DNA of 64,000 nucleotides from Symbiodinium sp. CCMP2592 (taxonomy: Eukaryota > Sar > Dinophyceae > Suessiales > Symbiodiniaceae): positions 1,870,001-1,934,000 of the forward strand of contig CAJNDT010002779.1 in the NCBI GenBank assembly GCA_905221615.1. The letters run 5' to 3'. Of this stretch, positions 429 to 63,702 are shown piece after piece. The translations under genes and the position numbers were made by a program. The notes beneath the pieces are model-generated. The model saw only the letters and a list, made by a program, of their open reading frames with translations, made no database searches and had not been told where the DNA came from. Positions within the stretch are counted from its first letter, which is position 1, and the number at the start of each line of letters is the position of its first letter.

Positions 429-516
429 GGGAGTTTCTGAAAAAAGGGCACCCTAATATAGTACCTTAAATAGTAGGATCCTTGCTATAAGGACCCCAAC
501 TTTTTCGGGAACTCCC
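429..516 (+). mobile_element. Family A foldback element, degenerate
   Basis: The left end GGGAGTTTCTG and right end TTCGGGAACTCCC frame a core of the family A type (CCCTAATATAGTACC, TAGTAGGATCC, TAAGGACCCC). The orientation is reversed relative to the copy at 8109. The flanks (TTAA, AATC) show no clean target duplication. Confidence 0.75.
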
Positions 517-3270: not shown

Positions 3271-3345
3271 GAACGGGAGCAAGTGCGGAAGCTGATGCGT
3301 GCGGCGCGCGAGGGAGCTGTCTCAGATCTGCAGCAGCTGCTACTT
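3271..3345 (+). CDS. Candidate 5' ankyrin exon
   Basis: The frame starting GAA CGG GAG after AG at 3269-3270 reads EREQVRKLMRAAREGAVSDL and then QQLLL. This resembles the two helices of a first ankyrin repeat. A donor of the GA type (G|GAAGCT) follows at 3346. Its phase does not fit the acceptor at 4013, so a small exon is probably missing between them. The start codon is probably further upstream, though ATG at 3295 is in frame. A family O foldback element ends just upstream, at 3252. Confidence 0.5.
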
Positions 3346-6048
3346 GGAAGCTTAGGGTTGCTCTAGAGTTTAGGGTTTAGAGTCTTTAGAGTTTAGGGTT
3401 GCTATAGGGTTCAGGGTTTAGGGTTTAGGGTATATAGGTGCCTTAATAACTACCTATCCTATTTGTTGGGGTTCCTAGTATAATGGGCCCCAAAACAATT
3501 ACTCTTATTTTTTTCTGCCTTACAGCTACTTTTTTCTGTGGTGCCTACGCATTCTATAGTCGGGTTTCTTCTAGGAGCCTACAAGAAAGTAATGTTTAGG
3601 GTTTAGGGCTTACCGGTCATCTGGTAGCATTCATGAACTTCAGTGGGTGTCATTGATGCCACATTCCTGATCGAAAGATCAACCTCGAGTCTTATTGGCG
3701 TGACCCCCCTGGCGTTTATAGGGATTGAGGACTTTTGACGTTTTGGGATTTTGGGTTACACTGAACCCAGAAATCTACACACCGAAGCCAAAGGCCAAAC
3801 CCAAGACCTCTCCGTTTTGTCGTTTTAAACCTGGGCTCAACAACTCCTCAACGACTTGACTCCGATGCGGCTTAGTAACTCCTTCTGCTTAAGCTCTGAG
3901 CCCTTTGAGCTGTGGAGCATGCACGAGACAAAAGGTCCGGTCAACAGAAACACCTGCATACAAGTTCTAGAGCCCCACGAAGGCTGCGCCATCCTCTGGA
4001 CCCAGATTCCAGGGACGGTCCTGGTGACAGCACCCCTCTGCAAATCGCATCCTCGGTGGGCCATCTTGATGCTGTCCGACTGCTGTTGGAGGCTCGGACA
4101 TTTGGGACACATCTCAGCGTTACGGCTGCTCTCCTGGAGCCCGAAACCTAAAGAGACTTCATCCCCAGACCCTCGGCCGAAAGCCTTCTCTAAATCCTCG
4201 GCTCTCGCTTGTCAGAGCAGGCTGGTGCCGACAAGGACCACGGTTGCGGCGAGACTCCCCTCCTTTTGGCGGCGGCGAACGGCCATGTAGAGATCGTGCA
4301 GCTGCTGGTCGAGGATCGCTCATCTTGTTAGACCATGGTCGCACATGGGTCATACATTGGGTCTGGGGCGCAGTGGTCCGATCCCCGTTACGTACGTGGT
4401 ACAATTGCTCAAGGACCCCCCGTCTTTTGAAAGCAGCACCCCACCCTATGGAAAGACTTTGACAGCCACGACGTAACCCAAGACCCAAGACCCCAAACCC
4501 TGATCCCTAAACCCTACATCCTTAACCCTAAACCTCACATCCTTAACCCCCCAAACCCCTAAACCCTAAAACCCCAAAGCCCTAAACCCTAAAACCCCAA
4601 AGCCTGCAGCTGGCGTAGGCCGGTGCGGACCTCGAGAAGACCAGGGCTCTAGGCGCCTCAGCGCTCCTGTGCTCGAGTTAGGGAACTTACTTGAAGGACG
4701 GTTGATGATATGGGAGTTTCCGAAAATGGGGGACCCTAGAATAGTACCCTAAATAGTGGGATCCCCATTATAAGGACCTCAAAATAAGGTACCCCGAATT
4801 TCGGAAACTCCCATATAAATCCATGGGTACGGTTGGGGTTCCTTTAAAGGGATCTATAAGGGTACCTTTAAGGGTCCTTGAAGGGATCTATAGGGGGTTT
4901 AGGGTTCAGGGATGATATAAATCCTGCATTACCCATAATAAGGAATATGCCATAATTCCCATAGTTTAGGGTCCTTAAGGTAATGCAGGATTTATATCAT
5001 CAACCGGATCATGGGACTTAGTAAGTAAGGTTCCTTTAAGGGTTCTTTCAGGGATCTATAAGGTTTATGAAGGGCTTTTGTGCAAATAATGCGGGTTACT
5101 TTTTATGGTGACCATAACTAGGGATCTTTGGTAGATGATGTGGTTTCCTTCTTGTGGCTACCAGAAAAGGAGCCTATAGTAGTATTTTGTTTACGGTTTT
5201 CCTTCTTACCTACTGTAAGTTACATCAAAATTCTTTAACAAGAGCCCAGGCTTTGGATTGCCTGCTCAAGGGGCCACAGCAAGATCGTGAAGCTGCTTCT
5301 GGAGGATGGGGGGGGGGCATTTCCTGGTCCTCTCGGTTCAAAAGGATGCTGCTTTCGGATACTACAAAGGAGTTCTGGAGGATTCTAAGAGTACTATCAA
5401 GGAGTTCTACAGGGGCCTTGTTGTCCGTAGTTCAGAATGTTTCTTTTTCGGGTCTATAAGTGATCCTACAGATTTGTTGTGACGATTTTGAGGGCAGCTA
5501 CCCTTCAACCTGGAAGCCGCCAAGCTCCCGAAGCCTCGCAGGCCGGAAGCAACAAGAACAAGGTGGGAGTTTCCGAAAATTGGGGGGGTACCTGATTTAG
5601 GGCTCCTTATAAAAAGGATCCTACTCTTTAGGGTCCCACATTAGGGTCCCCTATTTTCGGAAGCTCCCAGGTGGACACGAAAGGCTCCTCCCCGCTGTGG
5701 ATTGCCTGCGCCAAGGGCCACTTGGAGGTTGCCCGGCTGCTGATTCAAGCAGGGGCTCAGAAGGAGAGGGCCAACATCCTCTCCGAATCACCTCTCTGGA
5801 AAGCCGCGGAGATGGGCCATGCCCAGATTGCGCAGCATCTCCTTCAGGCAGGTGTGGAGAAGGATCGCGCAGATGCTCGCGGAGCATCGCCCCTATGGAT
5901 TGCCTCAGCCAAAGGCCACCTGTCCATTGTGCGTATGCTGCGCGAAGCCGGTGCAGATCACAACAAGCCAAACACGCGAGGTGCTACCCCACTGTGGATT
6001 GCCTCGCAGAACAAGCGCCACGAGGTCATGAAGGTCTTAAGCTGCTAG
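3271..6048 (+). CDS. Ankyrin-repeat protein gene, multi-exon
   Basis: Ankyrin repeats are protein-binding scaffolds; the partner is unknown. Exons that join in one frame are 4013-4091, 4221-4313, 4619-4662, 5250-5304, 5542-5562 and 5671-6048 (stop TAG). A further exon at about 3271-3345 encodes an N-terminal ankyrin-like helix (LMRAAREGAVSDLQQLLL), but its link to 4013 is unresolved. The joined product has about seven repeats of roughly 33 residues with the usual TPL/SPLWIA, GH and LLLEAGA landmarks. The family and frame are clear because each splice restores a canonical repeat. Introns run GC-AG, GA-AG, GC-AG, GA-AG and GT-AG, with G after every AG. No other domain is visible, and the true 5' start was not found. 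The introns hold telomere-like repeats and foldback elements. The ankyrin identity is near certain; exon edges at the 5' end are tentative. Confidence 0.85.
3356..3436 (+). repeat. Telomere-like TTTAGGG cluster
   Basis: Degenerate repeats of (T)TTAGGGTT, with TAGAGTTTAGGG variants. They lie in the region after the first ankyrin exon candidate. Confidence 0.8.
4013..4091 (+). CDS. Ankyrin exon
   Basis: The exon encodes DGPGDSTPLQIASSVGHLDA followed by VRLLLE, one almost complete ankyrin repeat. It ends GAG and is followed by a GC donor (GCTCGGACAT). The frame remains open upstream to about 3912, so the acceptor could lie before 4013. The next exon resumes with AGADKD, giving the canonical LLLE-AGAD junction in phase 0. 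Confidence 0.75.
4221..4313 (+). CDS. Ankyrin exon, one full repeat
   Basis: This 93-nt exon encodes exactly 31 residues, AGADKDHGCGETPLLLAAAN followed by GHVEIVQLLVE. That is a single ankyrin unit cut at the same point as its neighbours (after LLxE). The acceptor is GAGCAG|GCT; the donor is of the GA type (GAG|GATCGC). The exon-per-repeat layout suggests growth by exon duplication, though the repeats have diverged. Confidence 0.85.
4490..4605 (-). repeat. Telomere-like CCCTAAA cluster in an ankyrin intron
   Basis: CCCTAAACCC units with CCCCAAA and CCCTGA variants lie inside intron 4314-4618, just before the acceptor. Confidence 0.85.
4619..4662 (+). CDS. Ankyrin exon, first half of a repeat
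   Basis: The exon encodes AGADLEKTRALGAS plus two bases (GC). The acceptor is GCGTAG|GCC and the donor is of the GC type (GC|GCTCCTGT). Joined in phase 2 to the exon at 5250 it gives LGASALWIACSRGHSKIVKL, a standard repeat core. The exact restoration of the motif is the evidence for the splice choice. Confidence 0.8.
4699..5006 (+). mobile_element. Family C element, interrupted
   Basis: The left end CGGTTGATGATA at 4699 and right end TATATCATCAACCG at 5006 are inverted and flanked by GA on both sides. Inside are the family A insertion, about 95 bp of extra sequence with repeated AAGGGATCTATAAGGG motifs, and a second partial left end (GATGATATAAATCCTGCATTACC from 4911). The last 95 bp closely match the copies at 59847 and 60379. 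Confidence 0.75.
4712..4812 (+). mobile_element. Family A element, nested in a family C element
   Basis: The terminal repeats are GGGAGTTTCCG and CGGAAACTCCC, flanked by exact ATAT at 4708-4711 and 4813-4816. Deleting the element and one ATAT recreates CGGTTGATGATATAAATCC, the end of family C as seen at 59847. The insertion therefore postdates the family C element. It lies inside the ankyrin intron 4663-5249. Confidence 0.9.
5004..5045 (+). mobile_element. Family E end fragment
   Basis: GGATCATGGGACTTAGTAAGTAAGGTT matches the left 27 bases of family E, directly against the end of the family C element. No right end is seen. A similar fragment lies at 7751-7783 (GGATCATGGGACCTAGTAAGCATGGTTAC). 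Confidence 0.65.
5065..5249 (+). mobile_element. Possible family D remnant ending at a splice acceptor
   Basis: The right end TTCTTTAACAAGAGCCCAG resembles CCCTTAACAAGAGCCCAG of the element at 32686-32782. A weak left counterpart is GGGCTTTTGTGCAAATAATG at 5068. The final AG is used as acceptor for the ankyrin exon at 5250. The left boundary is uncertain. Confidence 0.45.
5250..5304 (+). CDS. Ankyrin exon, second half of a repeat
   Basis: It begins G CTT TGG ATT GCC after the acceptor CCCAG|G and encodes LWIACSRGHSKIVKLLLE. A GA donor follows (GAG|GATGGG). The acceptor lies at the end of a sequence (AACAAGAGCCCAG) that matches the right terminal repeat of the family D foldback element at 32686-32782. 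Confidence 0.8.
5542..5562 (+). CDS. Ankyrin microexon (7 codons)
   Basis: This 21-nt exon encodes AGSNKNK between a GA-AG intron (5305-5541) and the family A element intron (5563-5670). The product continues as VDTKGSSPLWIA in the next exon. Both flanks keep phase 0. It is best explained as the 5' piece of an exon that was continuous with 5671-6048 until the family A element inserted. Confidence 0.8.
5563..5670 (+). other. Intron formed exactly by a family A element
   Basis: The intron starts GTGGGAGTTTCCG and ends GAAGCTCCCAG. The element proper is 5565-5668. AGGT occurs at 5561-5564 and again at 5669-5672, as a target duplication. The left copy gives the GT donor, the right copy the AG acceptor. 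Removing the intron joins AAC AAG AAC AAG to GTG GAC ACG in frame, which recreates the sequence expected before insertion. Confidence 0.85.
5565..5668 (+). mobile_element. Family A element acting as an intron
   Basis: The ends GGGAGTTTCCG and CGGAAGCTCCC are flanked by AGGT on both sides. The core carries GGTACC, GGCTCCTTATAA, GGATCCTACT and TTAGGGTCCC as in other copies. There is no coding capacity. Confidence 0.9.
5671..6048 (+). CDS. Ankyrin 3'-terminal exon with stop
   Basis: This is the largest exon (378 nt including TAG). It encodes four successive repeat units with landmarks SSPLWIACAKGHLEVARLL, SPLWKAAEMGH, ASPLWIASAKGH and ATPLWIASQNKRHEV, and ends VLSC. Frame, codon use and repeat spacing leave little doubt that it is coding. 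The long opposite-strand frame in the same interval is a shadow. Confidence 0.92.
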   Translation: MDTKGSSPLWIACAKGHLEVARLLIQAGAQKERANILSESPLWKAAEMGHAQIAQHLLQAGVEKDRADARGASPLWIASAKGHLSIVRMLREAGADHNKPNTRGATPLWIASQNKRHEVMKVLSC

Positions 6049-8108: not shown

Positions 8109-8210
8109 GGGAGTTTCCGAAAAATAGGGGTACCTTATTTTGGGTTCCTTAGAATAAGGATCCTACTATTTAGGGTACTATATTAGGGTGCCCTATTTTC
8201 GGAAACTCCC
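8109..8210 (+). mobile_element. Family A element, well preserved
   Basis: The 102-bp element has near-perfect inverted repeats (GGGAGTTTCCG / CGGAAACTCCC) and exact AAAT duplications at 8105-8108 and 8211-8214. It can fold almost along its whole length. Confidence 0.92.
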
Positions 8211-17163: not shown

Positions 17164-17263
17164 GGGTGGTTGTCAAAATTAGGGTCCCTTTTTGGGTACC
17201 CCAAATATTAGATGCCGTATTATGCTAAGGATCCAAAAAGGGTCCCTAATTTAACAACCACCC
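17164..17263 (+). mobile_element. Family B foldback element
   Basis: The left end GGGTGGTTGTCAAAATTAGG and right end AATTTAACAACCACCC are inverted. The core has CCCTTTTTGGGTACC and its complement CCAAAAAGGGTCCC. The flanks are GTGT-C on the left and GTGT on the right, close to a 4-bp duplication. Confidence 0.88.
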
Positions 17264-29563: not shown

Positions 29564-29666
29564 GGGTAGTTGTCAATACCATAGGGTCCCTTATTGGGTC
29601 CCGATTATACTACGGCGCCTAGTATTGAGGGTACCCAAAAAGGGATGATAATTTTGACAACCACCC
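29564..29666 (+). mobile_element. Family B element, with target duplication
   Basis: The ends are GGGTAGTTGTCAATA and AATTTTGACAACCACCC, with exact ATAA on both sides (29560-29563, 29667-29670). The core includes GGGTCCCGATTATACTACGGCGCC. Confidence 0.9.
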
Positions 29667-31977: not shown

Positions 31978-32057
31978 TTATAAGAAGGAGCCCGCAAGAT
32001 AGTATTGGTAATTGTTTAGGCCCCTACTGTAGGTAGTTAAGGCGTATCACTGTCCAT

Positions 32058-32292
32058 GCTAAACCCTAAACCCCTGAAATCCTAAAACCCTAAACCCCTA
32101 AACCCTGAAACCCTAAACCCCAAACCCCCTAAACCCCTAAACCCTTAAACCCTAAACCCTAATCCCCTAAACCCCTAAGCCCTAAAACCCTAATCCCTAA
32201 ACCCCTAAACCCCTATAAATCCTAAACCCTTAAACCCTAAACCCGTAGTCCCCTAAACCTCAAACCCCGATAAACCCCAAACCCCAAACATG
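32058..32292 (-). repeat. Largest CCCTAAA telomere-like array
   Basis: About 230 bases of CCCTAAA, CCCCTAAA, CCCTGAAA, CCCTTAAA and CCCTAAT units, over 25 in all, the longest such array in the window. Unit length varies from 7 to 9, so it is degenerate and not an active chromosome end. Confidence 0.9.
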
Positions 32293-32407
32293 GCAGAGCA
32301 GACCGGCTCAAGGTTGTCCGAAAGATCCTTCAGCACTCACAGACACCTCTCAGCGGAGTCTGAGACCCGCTTGGCCGTTGGTTCAGAGAGTTGCTTCGCA
32401 CACTTAA

Positions 32408-40788: not shown

Positions 40789-40887
40789 CGGTGGTTGTCA
40801 AAATTAGGTCCCTTTTGGGTACCATGAATATTAGGTGCCGTATTGTAATAGGTACCCAAAAAGGGACCATAATTTTGACAGCCACCC
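40789..40887 (+). mobile_element. Family B element, with target duplication
   Basis: The ends are CGGTGGTTGTCAAAATTAGG and AATTTTGACAGCCACCC, flanked by AGTT (40785-40788, 40888-40891). The core carries GGTGCCGTATTGTAATAGG. Confidence 0.9.
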
Positions 40888-43130: not shown

Positions 43131-43137
43131 ACCCTAC

Positions 43138-43215
43138 TTAGGGGTACCATATGTTGGGGTCCTTAAAATGAGGATCCTACTATTTAGGGTACTATATTAG
43201 GGGTCCTACGCCCTG
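43138..43215 (+). mobile_element. Family A remnant without ends
   Basis: The core AGGGGTACCATATGTTGGGG, then TCCTTA, GGATCCTACTATTTAGGGTACTATATTAGGGG, is clearly family A. The terminal GGGAGTTTCCG repeats are gone, so it is an old, eroded copy. Confidence 0.7.
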
Positions 43216-43337
43216 GCCCTCTACCCGAACGAAGTTCTGAGAGCTGAGCAGCCTTGGCACCGGATACTCGGAGCTTTCTTTTCTGTGAAGCCTTCTAGTT
43301 ACAGCTCTGTAGACAGCACATGTTTCTGGGTGTAAGA

Positions 43338-43408
43338 TTAGGGGTACTTTATTCGGGGTCCTTATAGTGAGCCTACAATTTAGCGAACTATATCAGAGTT
43401 TCGGGTAT
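43338..43408 (+). mobile_element. Second, more diverged family A remnant
   Basis: AGGGGTACTTTATTCGGGG, TCCTTATAGTGAGCCTACAATTTAG and CTATATCAGAG align with the family A core at lower identity. It lies about 120 bp after the remnant at 43138, with no terminal repeats. Confidence 0.5.
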
Positions 43409-44204: not shown

Positions 44205-46335
44205 TCTCTAGACCTGCAACCACGGCAGGGGGAGCGATGAGTGTTGTTTGTGGCTGCAGATTAACAAGGTGCTGAAGCCCTTCTTCCTGGGCTTGACCTG
44301 CGCTGCCTGTGGTAGAAACTCGATAGCACTGACTGGGTTAGTGTTGGCTTTTTAAGACTTTGGCACTGGGGCAGTGAAACCGGTAATAGCAAGCGGACCT
44401 TGTAAATGTTTTGTGTGTGTGTTCTGGTCAATCAGCTTTATAGCTGTGGTTGGCACTTTGTGCACGATTGAACCATCTGCTGCTCGAACCTGAAAGCAGA
44501 AATGTTTTAGGGTGATGGCCAGATCCTTCTCTTTCTCTGAACTATCAACCCTACACCCCCTGAACCCTCATGAACCTTTGTTTGTACCACGGATGTCGCA
44601 ATGAGGCTATGGCATGACCTTGTTCAAGGTCGGCCTCTTGCTTCGAAAAACTTGGGGCATCTTGGGATGTAGGGTCACCCACAGGCTAAATCCCGGAGCA
44701 TTTTGGGCTCTGTTGTTTGAGGCACCGACGCGAGGATGAGGGCAGATGACCGTTTGGATGCTTCCACTAAATCCAAGCAACAGGTTTCAGCAGTCACGGG
44801 AAAGAGGTTCCCGATCAGTCGTCGAACACAGGGCTACTGCCTTAGGTTTTGGAGTTTGGAGACCTGTTATGGTTCGGCTACAAAAAACTGCTGAAAACTC
44901 AGACTATGGCGCCAGCTCTTTGCTTCAGTTGTCCCCGTGCTTGTTCAGAGTCGTTCATACCCTCCAGTTGCTTGGCAATGTGGGTGCTCGGGGAGATCCT
45001 CAACGATCTTCGTGTGAATTCGCATGTCGACCTTGGAGCTCGGCCATGTTCTTCTCGACCGCCTTGCGTGTTGGTGTAGTACACCTTCGATTTCGGGTTC
45101 CTTGCGGGCTTTCTGCGACTCGCTCTAGTGGCTTACTGAAAGATCCCGTCAGCACTTGGACTCCACACACCCCAGATCATCGCCTAGAAGCCCGGGACCC
45201 TCAAGAAGCCCGCATCCGAAACCAAAGCTCGAAATCACGAACCCAGGTGCCGAAGTTGTGGGCAAGACGACGCACTGGTGGCTCAACGTCGCCACTTCGT
45301 CGCAGTCCATTTGAGTAGTTCTCTAGATTAGAGTCGCTTTTAGGGTTCGTTTTGCAAGTGTGCTGCACTGTTTGGGGGGTCAACAAAGGGATCATAAGTT
45401 AGAGAACTATCCTTATAGAACCCTGTTAGACCCTTATAGATCCCTTTAAGGAACCCTAAAAAAGGGGCCCCAATTTAGAGAACTACCCATTTGGGAACTC
45501 AACGCCAGCCCTAGGCTTCCAAGCATACAAGTACCCCGACTGAATCTCAGTGGTCAACGATGCATCACTCAAGAGTTCATATATTTTAGTAAGGGTAGTA
45601 CTATCATAAGATACTATAAGATAAGTTAAGCTACAAAACTGTACTACAGAATATTGTCAGGTGCCATCAAACCAAATCTTAAGGCTCATGGACCTTCCGC
45701 CCCTTTGTCGGATTATCTACCGCCCGTCGGTGAAAGCCAAGTGTAGAGGCAATTCTACCATCGCTACTAGAATTATTTGTAACATGAAGAATAATATCTT
45801 TGTATTCACTACAATATGAATATAGTAGTAGTAGGCAGAACCTATATTCACAAACTCCCTACGTGAAGCCTTTCATCGTGACTAGGAGCTCGAAGATGCA
45901 GCTCCTGCAGCTTCCAGTTTCTAGTGAGAGCCCTGGAACAGGGCTAAGCCAGTACGATGGACGTCAACAAGTCTAGCGAAGCGGGTTTAGGGTTTATAGG
46001 GTTTAGGGTTTAGGGTTTTGAGTTCTGCTTTTTTTGATGACTCAAGCCTGTGCTCAACAACGAGGAGCTATATGTACTTGCTATCTTTGCGCTGGCCGTC
46101 TGCGTTATCCAGGCACCCGTGATGACGTCAGTCGCTGTTTTGATTGGCTTCAGTCATCATAGAAGCCTAATGAGATAAATGCCAACATTATTCCCTAGGG
46201 CTCCTTCTTATCGTAGTGATGCGTCCTTAGGCCCGCGGAGCTAGCACCGCCAGGTCGCTGGCCTAGGATCCAAAGCTATACATGGCATTGACTTCAGAGG
46301 TTTCCCCCTCTTATCCCAAAGCTTGAACCCTAAGC
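44205..46335. other. No convincing gene
   Basis: The 190-codon frame at 44746-45318 shares its interval with minus-strand frames and shows no motif. A partial foldback-like segment lies at 45385-45490 (TTAGAGAACTATCC, AGGGGCCCCAATTTAGAGAACTACCC). TTTAGGG units occur at 45985-46018. Confidence 0.5.
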
Positions 46336-49742: not shown

Positions 49743-49843
49743 GGGAGTTTCCGAAAATAGGGTACCCTAATATGGTACCCTAAATAGTAGGATGCTTATT
49801 ATAAGGACCCCACATAAGGTACCCCTAATTTTCGGAAACTCCC
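49743..49843 (+). mobile_element. Family A element, reverse orientation
   Basis: The inverted ends GGGAGTTTCCG and CGGAAACTCCC are flanked by exact AAGT duplications (49739-49742 and 49844-49847). The core matches the reverse complement of the 8109 copy. Confidence 0.92.
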
Positions 49844-50241
49844 AAGTGTCCGCCCGCCTTGTCCTGTGCGAAATTTGCGTGAAGACCCTGGGGTCGAGCT
49901 TGGAGAACCCTGTAGCGAGGGTAGACCAATAAGCCGTCACATAATTATGGGCTGAATATCGCTCAGATGAAGGAATGTGCCCTAAACCCTAAAATCAAAC
50001 AATGGCACAGTCGCAAGGCAGGCACAAGTGCCTAAAGCCTTGAATTGTGCAAGAACCTCAATCCCAACCGCAGACGTTGAAGCCGCAGATGGGTCCTGGG
50101 CTTCATGTATTGAGCTTAGGGCCTGTGACTTCCACAGCTTTTGGTGTTCCATTGACAGGGAACTTCGAGGTTTGATGGGACTTACAAGCAACAGGTTTTG
50201 TGCCTTGGGTTTAGCCAGACTTCGTCCAGGGTGCATCGGCC

Positions 50242-51021
50242 ATGACGACAAGGCAGAGTAGGCTAATTCTCGATACCCCGACAAGGGGGACCAAAAGGCC
50301 AGCGGCAAATCTGTCTGATCTGGAACCAGAGGGGCCAACAACAGCTACTGCAGAGCAGGTTAGCGACGTGCGCATAGAGTTCGGAGAAAATTCTGAGGAC
50401 TCCATGCTGGCAAACTCTGCTTTACTTCGGATGGCATCCCCAGTATTCAACCGCATGTTCACTAGTGGCATGAGGGAGGCGCAGCAAGGCGTCATCAAAG
50501 TGGAAGTGGCCAGCAAGGAGGAGTTCAAGGTCTTCTACGATTTTTTGCTACCTATGGCATGGGGCGCTAGAGTATCAGAGAACAATGTTGATTCGCTTCT
50601 CGCAATCAGCGACTACTACCAAGTGGAGATGATCAAACAGCGATGCGAGAATCATTTGCTTCGCTGTGCGCCAACTGCCAGTCGCTTGCTGCAAGCGCAC
50701 AGGCACGGCCTCAAAAGTCAATACGAAAGGTGCATTGGTGCCCTGGCCAAGAAGAGTACGAAGGTGGACTTGGAGGTGCTCCGGTCGCAGCCGGACATCT
50801 TGTTTGATCTACTCCCAACGCTGAACCGGCTCAGGGCCATGAAAAGTGAGATCGTCAGACACCAGGCTGCAGTCGAACCCAAGAATCCTATTTTCGAAGA
50901 TGTGGACTTTGCCAATGGGCGTAGATTTTCCACGTCCGCATCACAGAGAATATCTGTACTTTTGAGGGCCCGGCCGGGATTGAGAGTTTTCTTGAGAAAG
51001 TTGCTCCAGGAATTGGAGTGA
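50242..51021 (+). CDS. BTB/POZ domain protein
   Basis: This single uninterrupted frame runs 259 codons from ATG (50242) to TGA. Residues about 40-145 form a BTB/POZ domain. The start DVRIEF, the LLRMASPVFNRMF segment (the HxxxLaxxSpvFxxmF pattern in reduced form), the KVEVASKEEFKVFYDFL strand-helix and the LLAISDYYQVEMIKQRCENHL end are all present. BTB domains mediate dimerisation and often link substrates to Cullin-3 ubiquitin ligases. The C-terminal 110 residues are helical, without kelch, MATH or zinc-finger motifs. The first 38 residues are polar and probably disordered. No intron is needed, unusual beside the other genes here and possibly a sign of retroposition. ATG at 50242 is the first in frame. 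A role in ubiquitylation is inference only. Confidence 0.9.
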   Translation: MTTRQSRLILDTPTRGTKRPAANLSDLEPEGPTTATAEQVSDVRIEFGENSEDSMLANSALLRMASPVFNRMFTSGMREAQQGVIKVEVASKEEFKVFYDFLLPMAWGARVSENNVDSLLAISDYYQVEMIKQRCENHLLRCAPTASRLLQAHRHGLKSQYERCIGALAKKSTKVDLEVLRSQPDILFDLLPTLNRLRAMKSEIVRHQAAVEPKNPIFEDVDFANGRRFSTSASQRISVLLRARPGLRVFLRKLLQELE

Positions 51022-53997: not shown

Positions 53998-54099
53998 GGG
54001 AGTTTCCGAAAACCAGGCGTACCTTATTTGGGGGTCCTTATAAAAATGATCCTACTATTTACGGTCCCAAATTAGGGTCCCCTATTTTTGGAAACTCCC
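53998..54099 (+). mobile_element. Family A element
   Basis: The ends are GGGAGTTTCCG and TGGAAACTCCC. The flanking duplication is ATTTT (53993-53997 and 54100-54104), one base longer than in the other copies, possibly by chance. Confidence 0.9.
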
Positions 54100-59840: not shown

Positions 59841-59846
59841 ACACTA

Positions 59847-59947
59847 CGGTTGATGATATAAATCCTGTATTACCTTAATGGCCCTAGACTATGGGAATTC
59901 TGGTATATTCCTTATTATGGGTAATGCAGGATTGATATCATCAACCG
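59847..59947 (+). mobile_element. Family C element
   Basis: The inverted ends CGGTTGATGATATAAATCCTG and CAGGATTGATATCATCAACCG are flanked by TA on each side, the duplication typical of Tc1/mariner-type elements. The element is about 101 bp and non-coding. Confidence 0.9.
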
Positions 59948-60378: not shown

Positions 60379-60479
60379 CGGTCGATGATGTAAATCCTGC
60401 ATTACCCATAATAAGGAATATATCATAATTCCCGTAGTTTAGGGTCCTTAAGGTAATGCAGGATTTATATCATCAACCG
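60379..60479 (+). mobile_element. Family C element
   Basis: The ends CGGTCGATGATGTAAATCCTG and CAGGATTTATATCATCAACCG pair. The middle (CATAATAAGGAATAT, TAGTTTAGGGTCCTTAAGG) matches the copy at 4911-5006. No flanking duplication is evident. Confidence 0.88.
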
Positions 60480-60784
60480 AAGGAGTCCTGAACTAGAGAG
60501 GGATGTGGAGTATATAACTCTCAATGGTCGATTGATGTCGGGCATGAAGCTTCGACGCAATGACCCGCGTGCACTATCCTAGCCAGGAGCCTTATGTATG
60601 CTTCATTTGCAAAAAAAATCACAACATGAGCACCTGAGATTGCGCCGAACAAGCAGCGCCTTCCACAAAGCCAATCGGCAGATCGTTCCAGCAGGCTTTT
60701 GAGCAGGCAAAGAAAATAAGTTCGAACCAAGCGCTGCCGAAAAGCAGCACCTGGATAGGGGAGGTCGTGTATTGAAGTACGCTA

Positions 60785-61080
60785 AGCCCTCAACCCTAAA
60801 GCCCTTAACCGTAAACGCCAAACCCCTGAAGCCTTAAACCGTAGCCCTAAACCCTTAGCCCCACAACCCTAAATCCCCTGGACCCTCTGAATCCCCCCTT
60901 AACGTGTAAAACCCAAAAACCCTACAGGTGTAAACCCTTATATAACCCTAAAGCCCGAAACCCTGCAGCCCTAAAGCCCCAAAACCCTGAACCCTACAAC
61001 CCTAAAACCGCAAAGCCCTGAACCGTTGCAATCCTAAACCTGAAGCCCTAAAGCCCCCAGCGCCCTGAACTCTTGCAATC
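60785..61080 (-). repeat. Long degenerate CCCTAAA region
   Basis: Nearly 300 bases of CCCTAAA, CCCTGAA, CCCTACA and CCCCAAA units. It is followed at 61158-61345 by a TTTAGGG region on the other strand, giving a large imperfect inverted arrangement. Confidence 0.85.
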
Positions 61081-61157
61081 AGGAGGCGGCTGCTACCTTC
61101 ATTGCCCTGGCACGCGCGGAGCTGAAGGCTCGGGATCCGTCGCGTTCAGTGACGCTG

Positions 61158-61345
61158 TAGGGTTTTGGGGTTTCAGGGTTTTAGGGTTTCCGGATTTTGG
61201 GGTTTACGGTTTTAGGGTTTTAGCGTTTTGGGGCTTTGGGGTTTTATGGGGTTTGGGGGTTTTGAGGGTTCGGGTTTTGGGGTTAGGGTTTAGGTGTTTG
61301 GGGTTCAGGGTTTTGGAGTTTAGGGTTTGAGAGGGTCAGGGGTGA
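61158..61345 (+). repeat. Degenerate GGGTTTTGGGG/TTTAGGG region
   Basis: GGTTTTGGGGTTT and GGGTTTAGG units; strand sense is opposite to the array at 60785. The Gly/Phe/Leu-rich frame 61073-61330 comes from this repeat. Confidence 0.85.
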
Positions 61346-63480
61346 GGGTCTGGGTTTGGGGTGAAGTAGGGTGTGTAGAGTCTTCTGTGGTCAGGCATTG
61401 ATGTTAATTCAGAGTCATGTGCAGTCAGGCTTTAGCGTATAGAGCGTAGGATGTGAGGTCAGGCTTTACCGTTCAGGGTCTGGGGTTTGTGTTTGGAGAT
61501 TACTTAGGCTAAGGCCCCCTAGGCCCGTCTGAAAATTCAACCCTCACCAGGCTAGCTACATGCATCTAACCTGAGCAAAGGTGTTTGCTAGCTGTCATAA
61601 CGGAGTTGTACGGTTATACTGCCGAAATTCCTGATCAACGGCATGATTTTTAGAATGCTTGTCAGCAAAGTCAAGACTCTTGTCAAACCTTGCACCGAGA
61701 CGCACAATTCGCGACTCGCAGGCGTCAAGGCCCGCCAGGCTCAAACTCTGCTTCCGGCAATTTCGATTACTGCGACAGAGATCCTGGACAGAATTCAACA
61801 CAAACCACATCTCCCACTGCTACACCCTGACCAGCAAGCTTCAGACTGCAACTGTCGAGGCAGGACAATATGGTGAAGCAGCGGAAGCGGCAAAGAGCGC
61901 TTTACGATGCTTTGCCGCAGCATGAGACCTTTCATAATGAATGCCAAGCTCCAGGCCGTAAGCCTCACAACTGATTCCTGCTCCTTCATTGTCATCACTT
62001 GCATGATACTGATATGGGAGTTTCCGAAAATTAGGGGTACCTTGTTTTGGGGTCCTTATATTGAGGATCCTACTATTTAGGGTACTATATTAGGGTCCCC
62101 TATTTTCGGAAACTCCCATATTGGCAGAAGTACAAGATGCCCCCTGCTGAGAAGCTGCAGGTCTCTGTATTGGCGCACAGGGGGGGATCAGGGAGGAGGC
62201 AATTCAGCCGGAACAACACTGCAGACATTGCAAAGCAGGTGCAACAAACAAGGGCGGGCTGAACCCCTTGTACTTTGTGAGGTCGTGTCTTGTTCAGGGT
62301 CTTGTCTTTGACCGTCTTACGACTGCGGTAGCTTTGTTCTACCGGCCATTGATAGCAGCTCTGCTTCTGCTGCTACGATCGGTCATGTTCCTTGCAAGTC
62401 CGAGCCGATCGCAGAGCTATTGGGGAGTTTGGGGTCGTGGATTCAGGGTGTGGGGAGTAGAGGATCTAAGATTCAGGGTTTAAGGGTTCAGGGAGCTTGT
62501 GCTGAACCGTGTTTGATGGGGGGGGCGCATGCTTTGCCCCTACGTTTCACGGGTTTCATGCGACAAAGCCGTAGACCCCGAAGGAAAACAGCCCGGCACA
62601 GACCCCAAACCAAGCCCTAAAACAACCTAAACCCACCCGCAAAGCTTTCCCACGTCTCCTGATGCCAAGGACTCCTCAAAGAACTCGGTCGGCCGGCTCG
62701 GAGATCATTCAGGGTATCGAAGTCAGGATGTTGTGTTGTCTTTTTGGGTGGGATTTTCGGTTTGGGCGTTCACACTTTGATTTTGAGGTTTGGGGTCTCC
62801 GCCCTAGGCCATAGGGGTCGGAATGCTTAGTATCACTGTACTACGGCTCTCTGATTACAGTCCTATATAGTTACACTATGGCCCATATATTTTCCAAGTA
62901 TTGGGCGGGCAAACTGAAGGGACCGCGACTCCCCTCCTCCTGCGAACGCGTGGGATTCTGAAGTGTCGCGATCGTCTCTCATCATCACATGAAATGCCAT
63001 CATCAACAAGATCATCAACATCATCATCACCATCATAAAGCACAGGGAGCTGAAGATAACGGACGATGTGCACCGTACGTGTGGCTAGCTGAAATTGATC
63101 CCGAGCTATCCCAGACCCGACCAGCACAACGCTCGAACTGTGTCCCTTCAGAACAGTAATCCCAGCCCGAACGTTGAAAAAGTCAAGATGGAACCCCAAA
63201 CTAGCTCCTTCCAAAAGCCGGAGAGTAGTCCAGAAATAGCTTCATGAAGGCTCAACGCTGCAAACCCACAAGGATCTGCTATCTTTACAGCCTAAACCCC
63301 TCTGCAACCCCCAAACTCTACAAAGCCTAAACCTCTCTAAACCCTCAGCCCATCTTCAATCCTTAAACCCTACAAACCCTAATCCTCTGTGAGTGTGGTG
63401 AGGTGTGGGGGCCTTGGTCCAGCCGGGCGACTTCAAGGGAACCGCGGCGAAGCCGAAGATCCTCACCCCGGAGGCTCACC
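61346..63480. other. No resolved gene
   Basis: Open frames on both strands at 61595-61925 have a protein-like look (plus: LVSKVKTLVKPCTETHNSRL; minus: LDACESRIVRLGARFDKSLD), but neither can be preferred. The family A copy at 62016 and a CAT tract near 63000-63035 are the other features. Confidence 0.45.
62016..62117 (+). mobile_element. Family A element
   Basis: The terminal repeats are intact and flanked by exact ATAT (62012-62015 and 62118-62121). The core reads GGGGTACC, GGGGTCCTTATA, GGATCCTACTATTTAGGG, nearly identical to the 8109 copy. Confidence 0.92.
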
Positions 63481-63483
63481 AAG

Positions 63484-63618
63484 GTTTCGGGTTTAGGGTT
63501 TAGGGTTTCGGGTTTAGGGTTTCGGGTTTAGGGTTTCGGGTTTAGGGTTTGGGTTTAGGGTTTAGGGCTTCGGGTTTAGGGCTTAGGGTTCAGGGCTTTC
63601 GGGGGGGGGGGGGGGGGG
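63484..63618 (+). repeat. TTTAGGG/TTTCGGG array with G18 tract
   Basis: About fifteen units alternate TTTAGGG and TTTCGGG, with an almost regular 14-base period, ending in 18 consecutive G. A family A copy follows directly. Confidence 0.9.
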
Positions 63619-63622
63619 ATTG

Positions 63623-63702
63623 GGGAGTTTCCGATGGTAAGGGGTGATGAGGATCCTACTATTTAGGGTGCCATATTAGGGTCCCCTATTTTCGGAAACC
63701 CC
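63623..63702 (+). mobile_element. Family A element, internally shortened
   Basis: The 80-bp copy has ends GGGAGTTTCCG and CGGAAACCCC and ATTG duplications (63619-63622 and 63703-63706). The left half of the core is largely lost. It lies directly after an 18-base G run. Confidence 0.82.

Follow-up and report, generated by a model that had tools for sequence, protein, structure and literature searches.

Precise gain of an intron through insertion of a transposon into the tetranucleotide AGGT has already been described (PMC3443670, available text). Introners of Symbiodinium microadriaticum show 4-bp duplications and inverted repeats, and some introner families draw both splice sites from the duplication (PMC9860276, available text). 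According to the accessible part of a review, introns of the GC/GA-AG type make up 25-74% in Symbiodiniaceae and <3% in Amoebophrya (PMC11453091). We analyzed a 64-kb stretch of DNA (the window) in which a foldback element coincides with a predicted intron of an ankyrin gene. The initial annotation regarded this kind of intron as already known, and introners of the DNA-transposon type are indeed in print (PMC9860276, available text).

Boundaries of the element and of the predicted intron

The ends of the element had been placed at 5565 and 5668, with AGGT on both sides, GT at 5563 and AG reaching 5670, and all these coordinates are correct (Table 1). The terminal inverted repeats are 16 nt long with a single mismatch. 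The predicted intron equals the element plus two nucleotides from each AGGT copy, with no leftover sequence, so the claim that the target duplication supplies both splice sites and makes the excision exact agrees with the sequence. The predicted splice, which rests on frame and motif, would join AAC AAG to GTG GAC (...AGSNKNK|VDTKGSSPLW...) and restore an ankyrin repeat of 33 residues; the spliced frame given earlier, AGSNKNKVDTKGSSPLWIA, is likewise correct. When 5563-5670 is retained, an in-frame TGA follows ten intron codons on. Judged by frame, repeat period and GT/AG, the borders of the element would be those of an intron in a coding gene, as in an introner.

The region folds into one long hairpin of -56.7 kcal/mol (z -6.0; 0 of 200 shuffles as good), whose pairing reaches the second base of the intron. 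Comparable z values were obtained for other family A copies (8109, -7.4; 62016, -7.1; 49743, -6.9), while those of the neighboring introns were -1.0 (4092-4220) and +0.3 (5305-5541, with no strong hairpin). The strong fold is thus a property of family A and not of intron status. Element, duplication, frame, stop on retention and hairpin can all be read directly in the sequence.

Table 1 Positions of the features described in the text
Feature	Positions	Strand	Remarks
Possible first ankyrin exon	3280-3351	+	QVRKLMRAAREGAVSDLQQLLLGS; by eye alone, approximate borders
Predicted exon A	4014-4091	+	start uncertain
Modelled intron A/B	4092-4220	+	GC-AG, 129 nt
Predicted exon B	4221-4313	+	AGADKDHGCGETPLLLAAANGHVEIVQLLVE, 31 residues
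Modelled intron B/C	between 4313 and 4619	+	GA-AG, 305 nt
Predicted exon C	4619-4662	+	AGADLEKTRALGASA
Modelled intron C/D	between 4662 and 5250	+	GC-AG, 587 nt
Predicted exon D	5250-5304	+	LWIACSRGHSKIVKLLLE
Predicted intron D/E	5305-5541	+	GA-AG, 237 nt; upstream of exon E
Predicted exon E	5542-5562	+	21-nt microexon, AGSNKNK
Left target-duplication copy, AGGT	5561-5564	+	GT 5563-5564, predicted 5' splice dinucleotide
Predicted spliceosomal GT-AG intron	5563-5670	+	108 nt, phase 0
Family A foldback element (MITE-like)	5565-5668	+	104 nt; ends GGGAGTTTCCGAAAAT / ATTTTCGGAAGCTCCC
Right target-duplication copy, AGGT	5669-5672	+	AG 5669-5670, predicted 3' splice dinucleotide
Exon F	5671-6048	+	ankyrin repeats; 378 nt, last exon; stop codon 6046-6048
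Family A copy, degenerate	429-516	-	
Family A copy	4712-4812	-	ATAT duplication; within predicted C/D intron of the ankyrin gene
Family A copy	8109-8210	+	AAAT duplication
Family A copy	49743-49843	-	AAGT duplication; ~370 nt upstream of BTB/POZ frame
Family A copy	53998-54099	+	ATTT(T) duplication, 5-bp match ATTTT
Family A copy	62016-62117	+	ATAT duplication
Family A copy, internally deleted	63623-63702	+	ATTG duplication if right end lost one base

The ankyrin gene model

Six exons (A to F) were modelled from the ankyrin register, the borders of A to E being predictions. The joined model protein of 219 residues, entered by hand as the query, matched Pfam Ank with an E value of 2.2e-49 and 163.1 bits. 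Its repeats measure 31 (B), 33 (C/D), 33 (E/F), 33, 33, and 33 residues; that exon B yields 31 residues rather than 33 is a point against the model. The earlier description of a split ankyrin exon holds insofar as the element does the splitting, dividing an exon of 399 nt into 21 and 378 nt, but the upstream piece is just the 21 nt at 5542-5562, and the residues before it would come from the exon ending at 5304. Four of the five modelled introns begin with GC or GA (interval 4014-5562), the E/F intron being GT-AG, and all five are followed by G (AG|G on the 3' side). Together with the ankyrin repeats and the scarcity of recognizable genes, these intron types and acceptors would suit a core dinoflagellate, for instance one of the Symbiodiniaceae (splice-site shares from PMC11453091).

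A dinoflagellate spliced-leader pattern had no match in the window at up to three mismatches, and Rfam returned none. Elsewhere in the window, an open frame of 268 codons at 50215-51018 carries a BTB/POZ domain (Pfam E value, 2.8e-12), and degenerate CCCTAAA/TTTAGGG stretches are numerous throughout in both orientations (for example, 32020-32307, 60917-61360, and 63473-63624).

Family A copies and their target duplications

Family A has eight copies in the window, 80 to 104 nt long, five in the plus and three in the minus orientation; the set was the same whether searched with a regular expression (at most four mismatches) or with a profile. Two further internal matches (43136-43206 and 43334-43399) lack both ends, and the weaker matches are relatives whose ends differ. 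Flanking direct repeats of at least 4 bp were found by script at six of the eight copies and by eye at a seventh (63623, ATTG), if one base is taken as lost; no 4-bp duplication was found at the flanks of 429-516. With its family flanked in this way, the element is more than a chance pattern. All seven readable duplications start with A, and six end with T. Being short and repeated, with terminal inverted repeats and, in seven of eight copies, a constant 4-bp duplication (5 bp in one), family A has the features of a MITE. Targeting specific to AGGT can be rejected, since six of the seven readable duplications are other tetramers. A 2-bp duplication, with the T...A belonging to the element ends, is less likely, as the outer base of ATTG at 63623 varies alike on both sides, and that of ATAA at the related element 29564 varies likewise.

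The 5565 copy is the sole one at a recognized exon. Because the duplications vary and just one copy lies in a recognized exon, family A appears to be an ordinary MITE with A-first targets, for which an insertion into AGGT is spliceable.

When the flanks of the 4712 copy were joined, the sequence spanning the join agreed with uninterrupted copies of another repeat: exactly over 20 nt at 59846-59865, exactly over 19 nt at both 5006-4988 and 60479-60461, and more weakly at 59948-59929 and 60379-60397. An empty site would be expected to give such matches, though just 6 nt of each lie beyond the join. A second foldback repeat, with ends ...GATGATATAAATCCTGxATTACC, occurs at 59844-59947, 60379-60482, and 4919-4993, and the 4712 copy interrupts one of its end sequences.

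Elements related to family A but with different termini (GGGTGGTTGTCAAAAT and the like) lie at 29564-29666, 40789-40887, and 45313-45488, and also at 17164, 18713, and 56276. Five matched end pairs of the related family B include two with an exact 4-bp duplication (29564, ATAA; 40789, AGTT); the matched ends at 17164, 18713, and 56276 have no exact one. The relative at 45313-45488 has an ATTT duplication, and the 4-bp duplications of 29564, 40789, and 45313 are all A-first.

Pfam gave no transposase match among 10 of the 65 listed open reading frames and the BTB frame. Exact-pattern scans of viral contigs with the terminal inverted repeat and two internal patterns of family A had no match, as had one family B pattern, in a collection that says little here; two family A patterns were also without a match in contigs of prokaryote genomes, a weak absence given the nature of that collection.

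Relative age of the exonic copy

The initial annotation deduced a recent gain from the near-perfect ends of the element. The ends are near perfect (15/16 matched), but the 5565 copy is not the youngest, and the deduction is not upheld: with 9 changes in 104 positions from the eight-copy consensus, it ranks fourth of eight by closeness, behind 49743 (3/101), 62016 (4/102), and 8109 (5/102). The remaining distances are 10/102 (53998), 10/101 (4712), 9/81 (63623), and 10/88 (429). The distance may overstate the age of the 5565 copy, because the consensus was built from the same eight copies and because of the few variants, noted by eye, that this copy has in common with 53998.

Origin of the predicted intron

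A family A MITE very probably inserted into an AGGT of an ankyrin exon and so made a spliceable, exact intron. The inverted ends and the 4-bp duplications throughout family A speak for an origin by insertion. So do the frame and the 33-residue period that removal restores, the TGA on retention, the Ank score of the model protein, the empty-site matches of the 4712 copy, and the five other modelled repeats spanning this position, none of which is interrupted there. A nonautonomous DNA transposon of family A would have entered AGGT on the sense strand, its staggered-cut insertion duplicating the tetranucleotide. The left copy would then provide a donor site, AG|GT, and the right one an acceptor, likewise AG|GT; donor positions +3 to +6 (GGGA), as well as a C/T-rich CTCCC ahead of the acceptor, would come from the ends of the element. 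The spliceosome would take out exactly 108 nt and leave the mRNA as before. The stable hairpin could work against recognition of this intron, and the internal TAG|G sites of the element (TTTAGGG and ATTAGGG) could act as alternative acceptors.

Transposition, splicing in the cell, and a live gene are what we infer here, and an unlikely alternative is that the ankyrin gene is decaying and received an ordinary insertion into AGGT that was never spliced. Most family A copies do lie where no exon was recognized, and the remaining modelled introns are long and repeat-rich. Moreover, an exonic hit on AGGT is by itself a weak proof of splicing: the coding sequence of the model has 24 ANNT sites, 6 of them AGGT, so that if the targets are ANNT roughly a quarter of exonic insertions would fall on AGGT even if splicing played no part. 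A stronger argument for splicing is the intact downstream frame and repeat register: exon F stays open for 126 codons (a chance of ~0.002 in random sequence), four repeats deep, and reaches a natural end, although this is still compatible with a gene that died recently.

Far less probable is an older, unrelated intron at the site, at the edges of which the element inserted or the sequence of which it replaced. At least three modelled introns sit after LLLE/LLVE and before AGx, and because of this recurrence at one repeat position (LLLE|AG) the gene would seem to hold old introns. The family A intron, however, lies at K|V, unlike that recurrent site; nor does 5563-5670 hold anything extra beyond the element and its 2 nt per AGGT copy. 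Under a tandem duplication of an AGGT-containing stretch of exon, AGGT would likewise be expected on either side of the intron (PMC3443670, available text), but we reject this origin as having next to no probability, since it is contradicted by the membership of the intron in the dispersed family A; the intron does not copy the neighboring exon.

Family A may not be a specialized introner at all. Possibly, at what we would put somewhat short of an even chance, it is an ordinary MITE that takes 4-bp targets beginning with A, and its symmetrical ends (GGGAG...CTCCC) alone complete donor and acceptor, so that any hit on a sense-strand AGGT, in either orientation, would yield an immediate, exact hairpin intron, here together with a 21-nt microexon. 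Were this true, the spread of introns would amount to a passive filter on the survival of MITEs in exons.

Comparison with known introners

Neither the ankyrin locus nor family A is named in the available portions of the introner literature (PMC9860276, PMC3443670, PMC7789003, PMC11453091, PMC12730881, PMC10522408, and PMC10666404), a comparison by name and not by sequence. The introners of S. microadriaticum, as the accessible text presents them, have in common with the 5565 element the 4-bp duplication, the terminal inverted repeats, the short length, and borders set by the insertion (PMC9860276). Compared by description, that family brings its own 3' splice site and takes just the 5' site from the duplication, whereas at 5565 both dinucleotides lie in the duplication (PMC9860276). 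The introner elements of Amoebophrya resemble it in their predicted hairpin, with inverted repeats of 8-20 nt and direct repeats of 3-5 nt at the exon borders; the introns that they form are mostly noncanonical (PMC7789003, available text). The intron predicted at 5565, by contrast, is of the GT-AG type, and GC/GA-AG borders occur in the other four of the model.

As far as its available text goes, the model of insertion into an AGGT proto-splice site is identical to the present case, with AGGT duplicated, a precise intron, and the coding sequence intact (PMC3443670). The mechanism is equal, and what this locus adds is the element family and its other targets side by side. It is a clean new example of known intron making by transposons and involves no new mechanism. 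One family in one 64-kb stretch, with seven copies without a recognized exon and one fitting an exact intron, allows one to ask whether introners are specialized for genes or are ordinary transposons under a selective filter.
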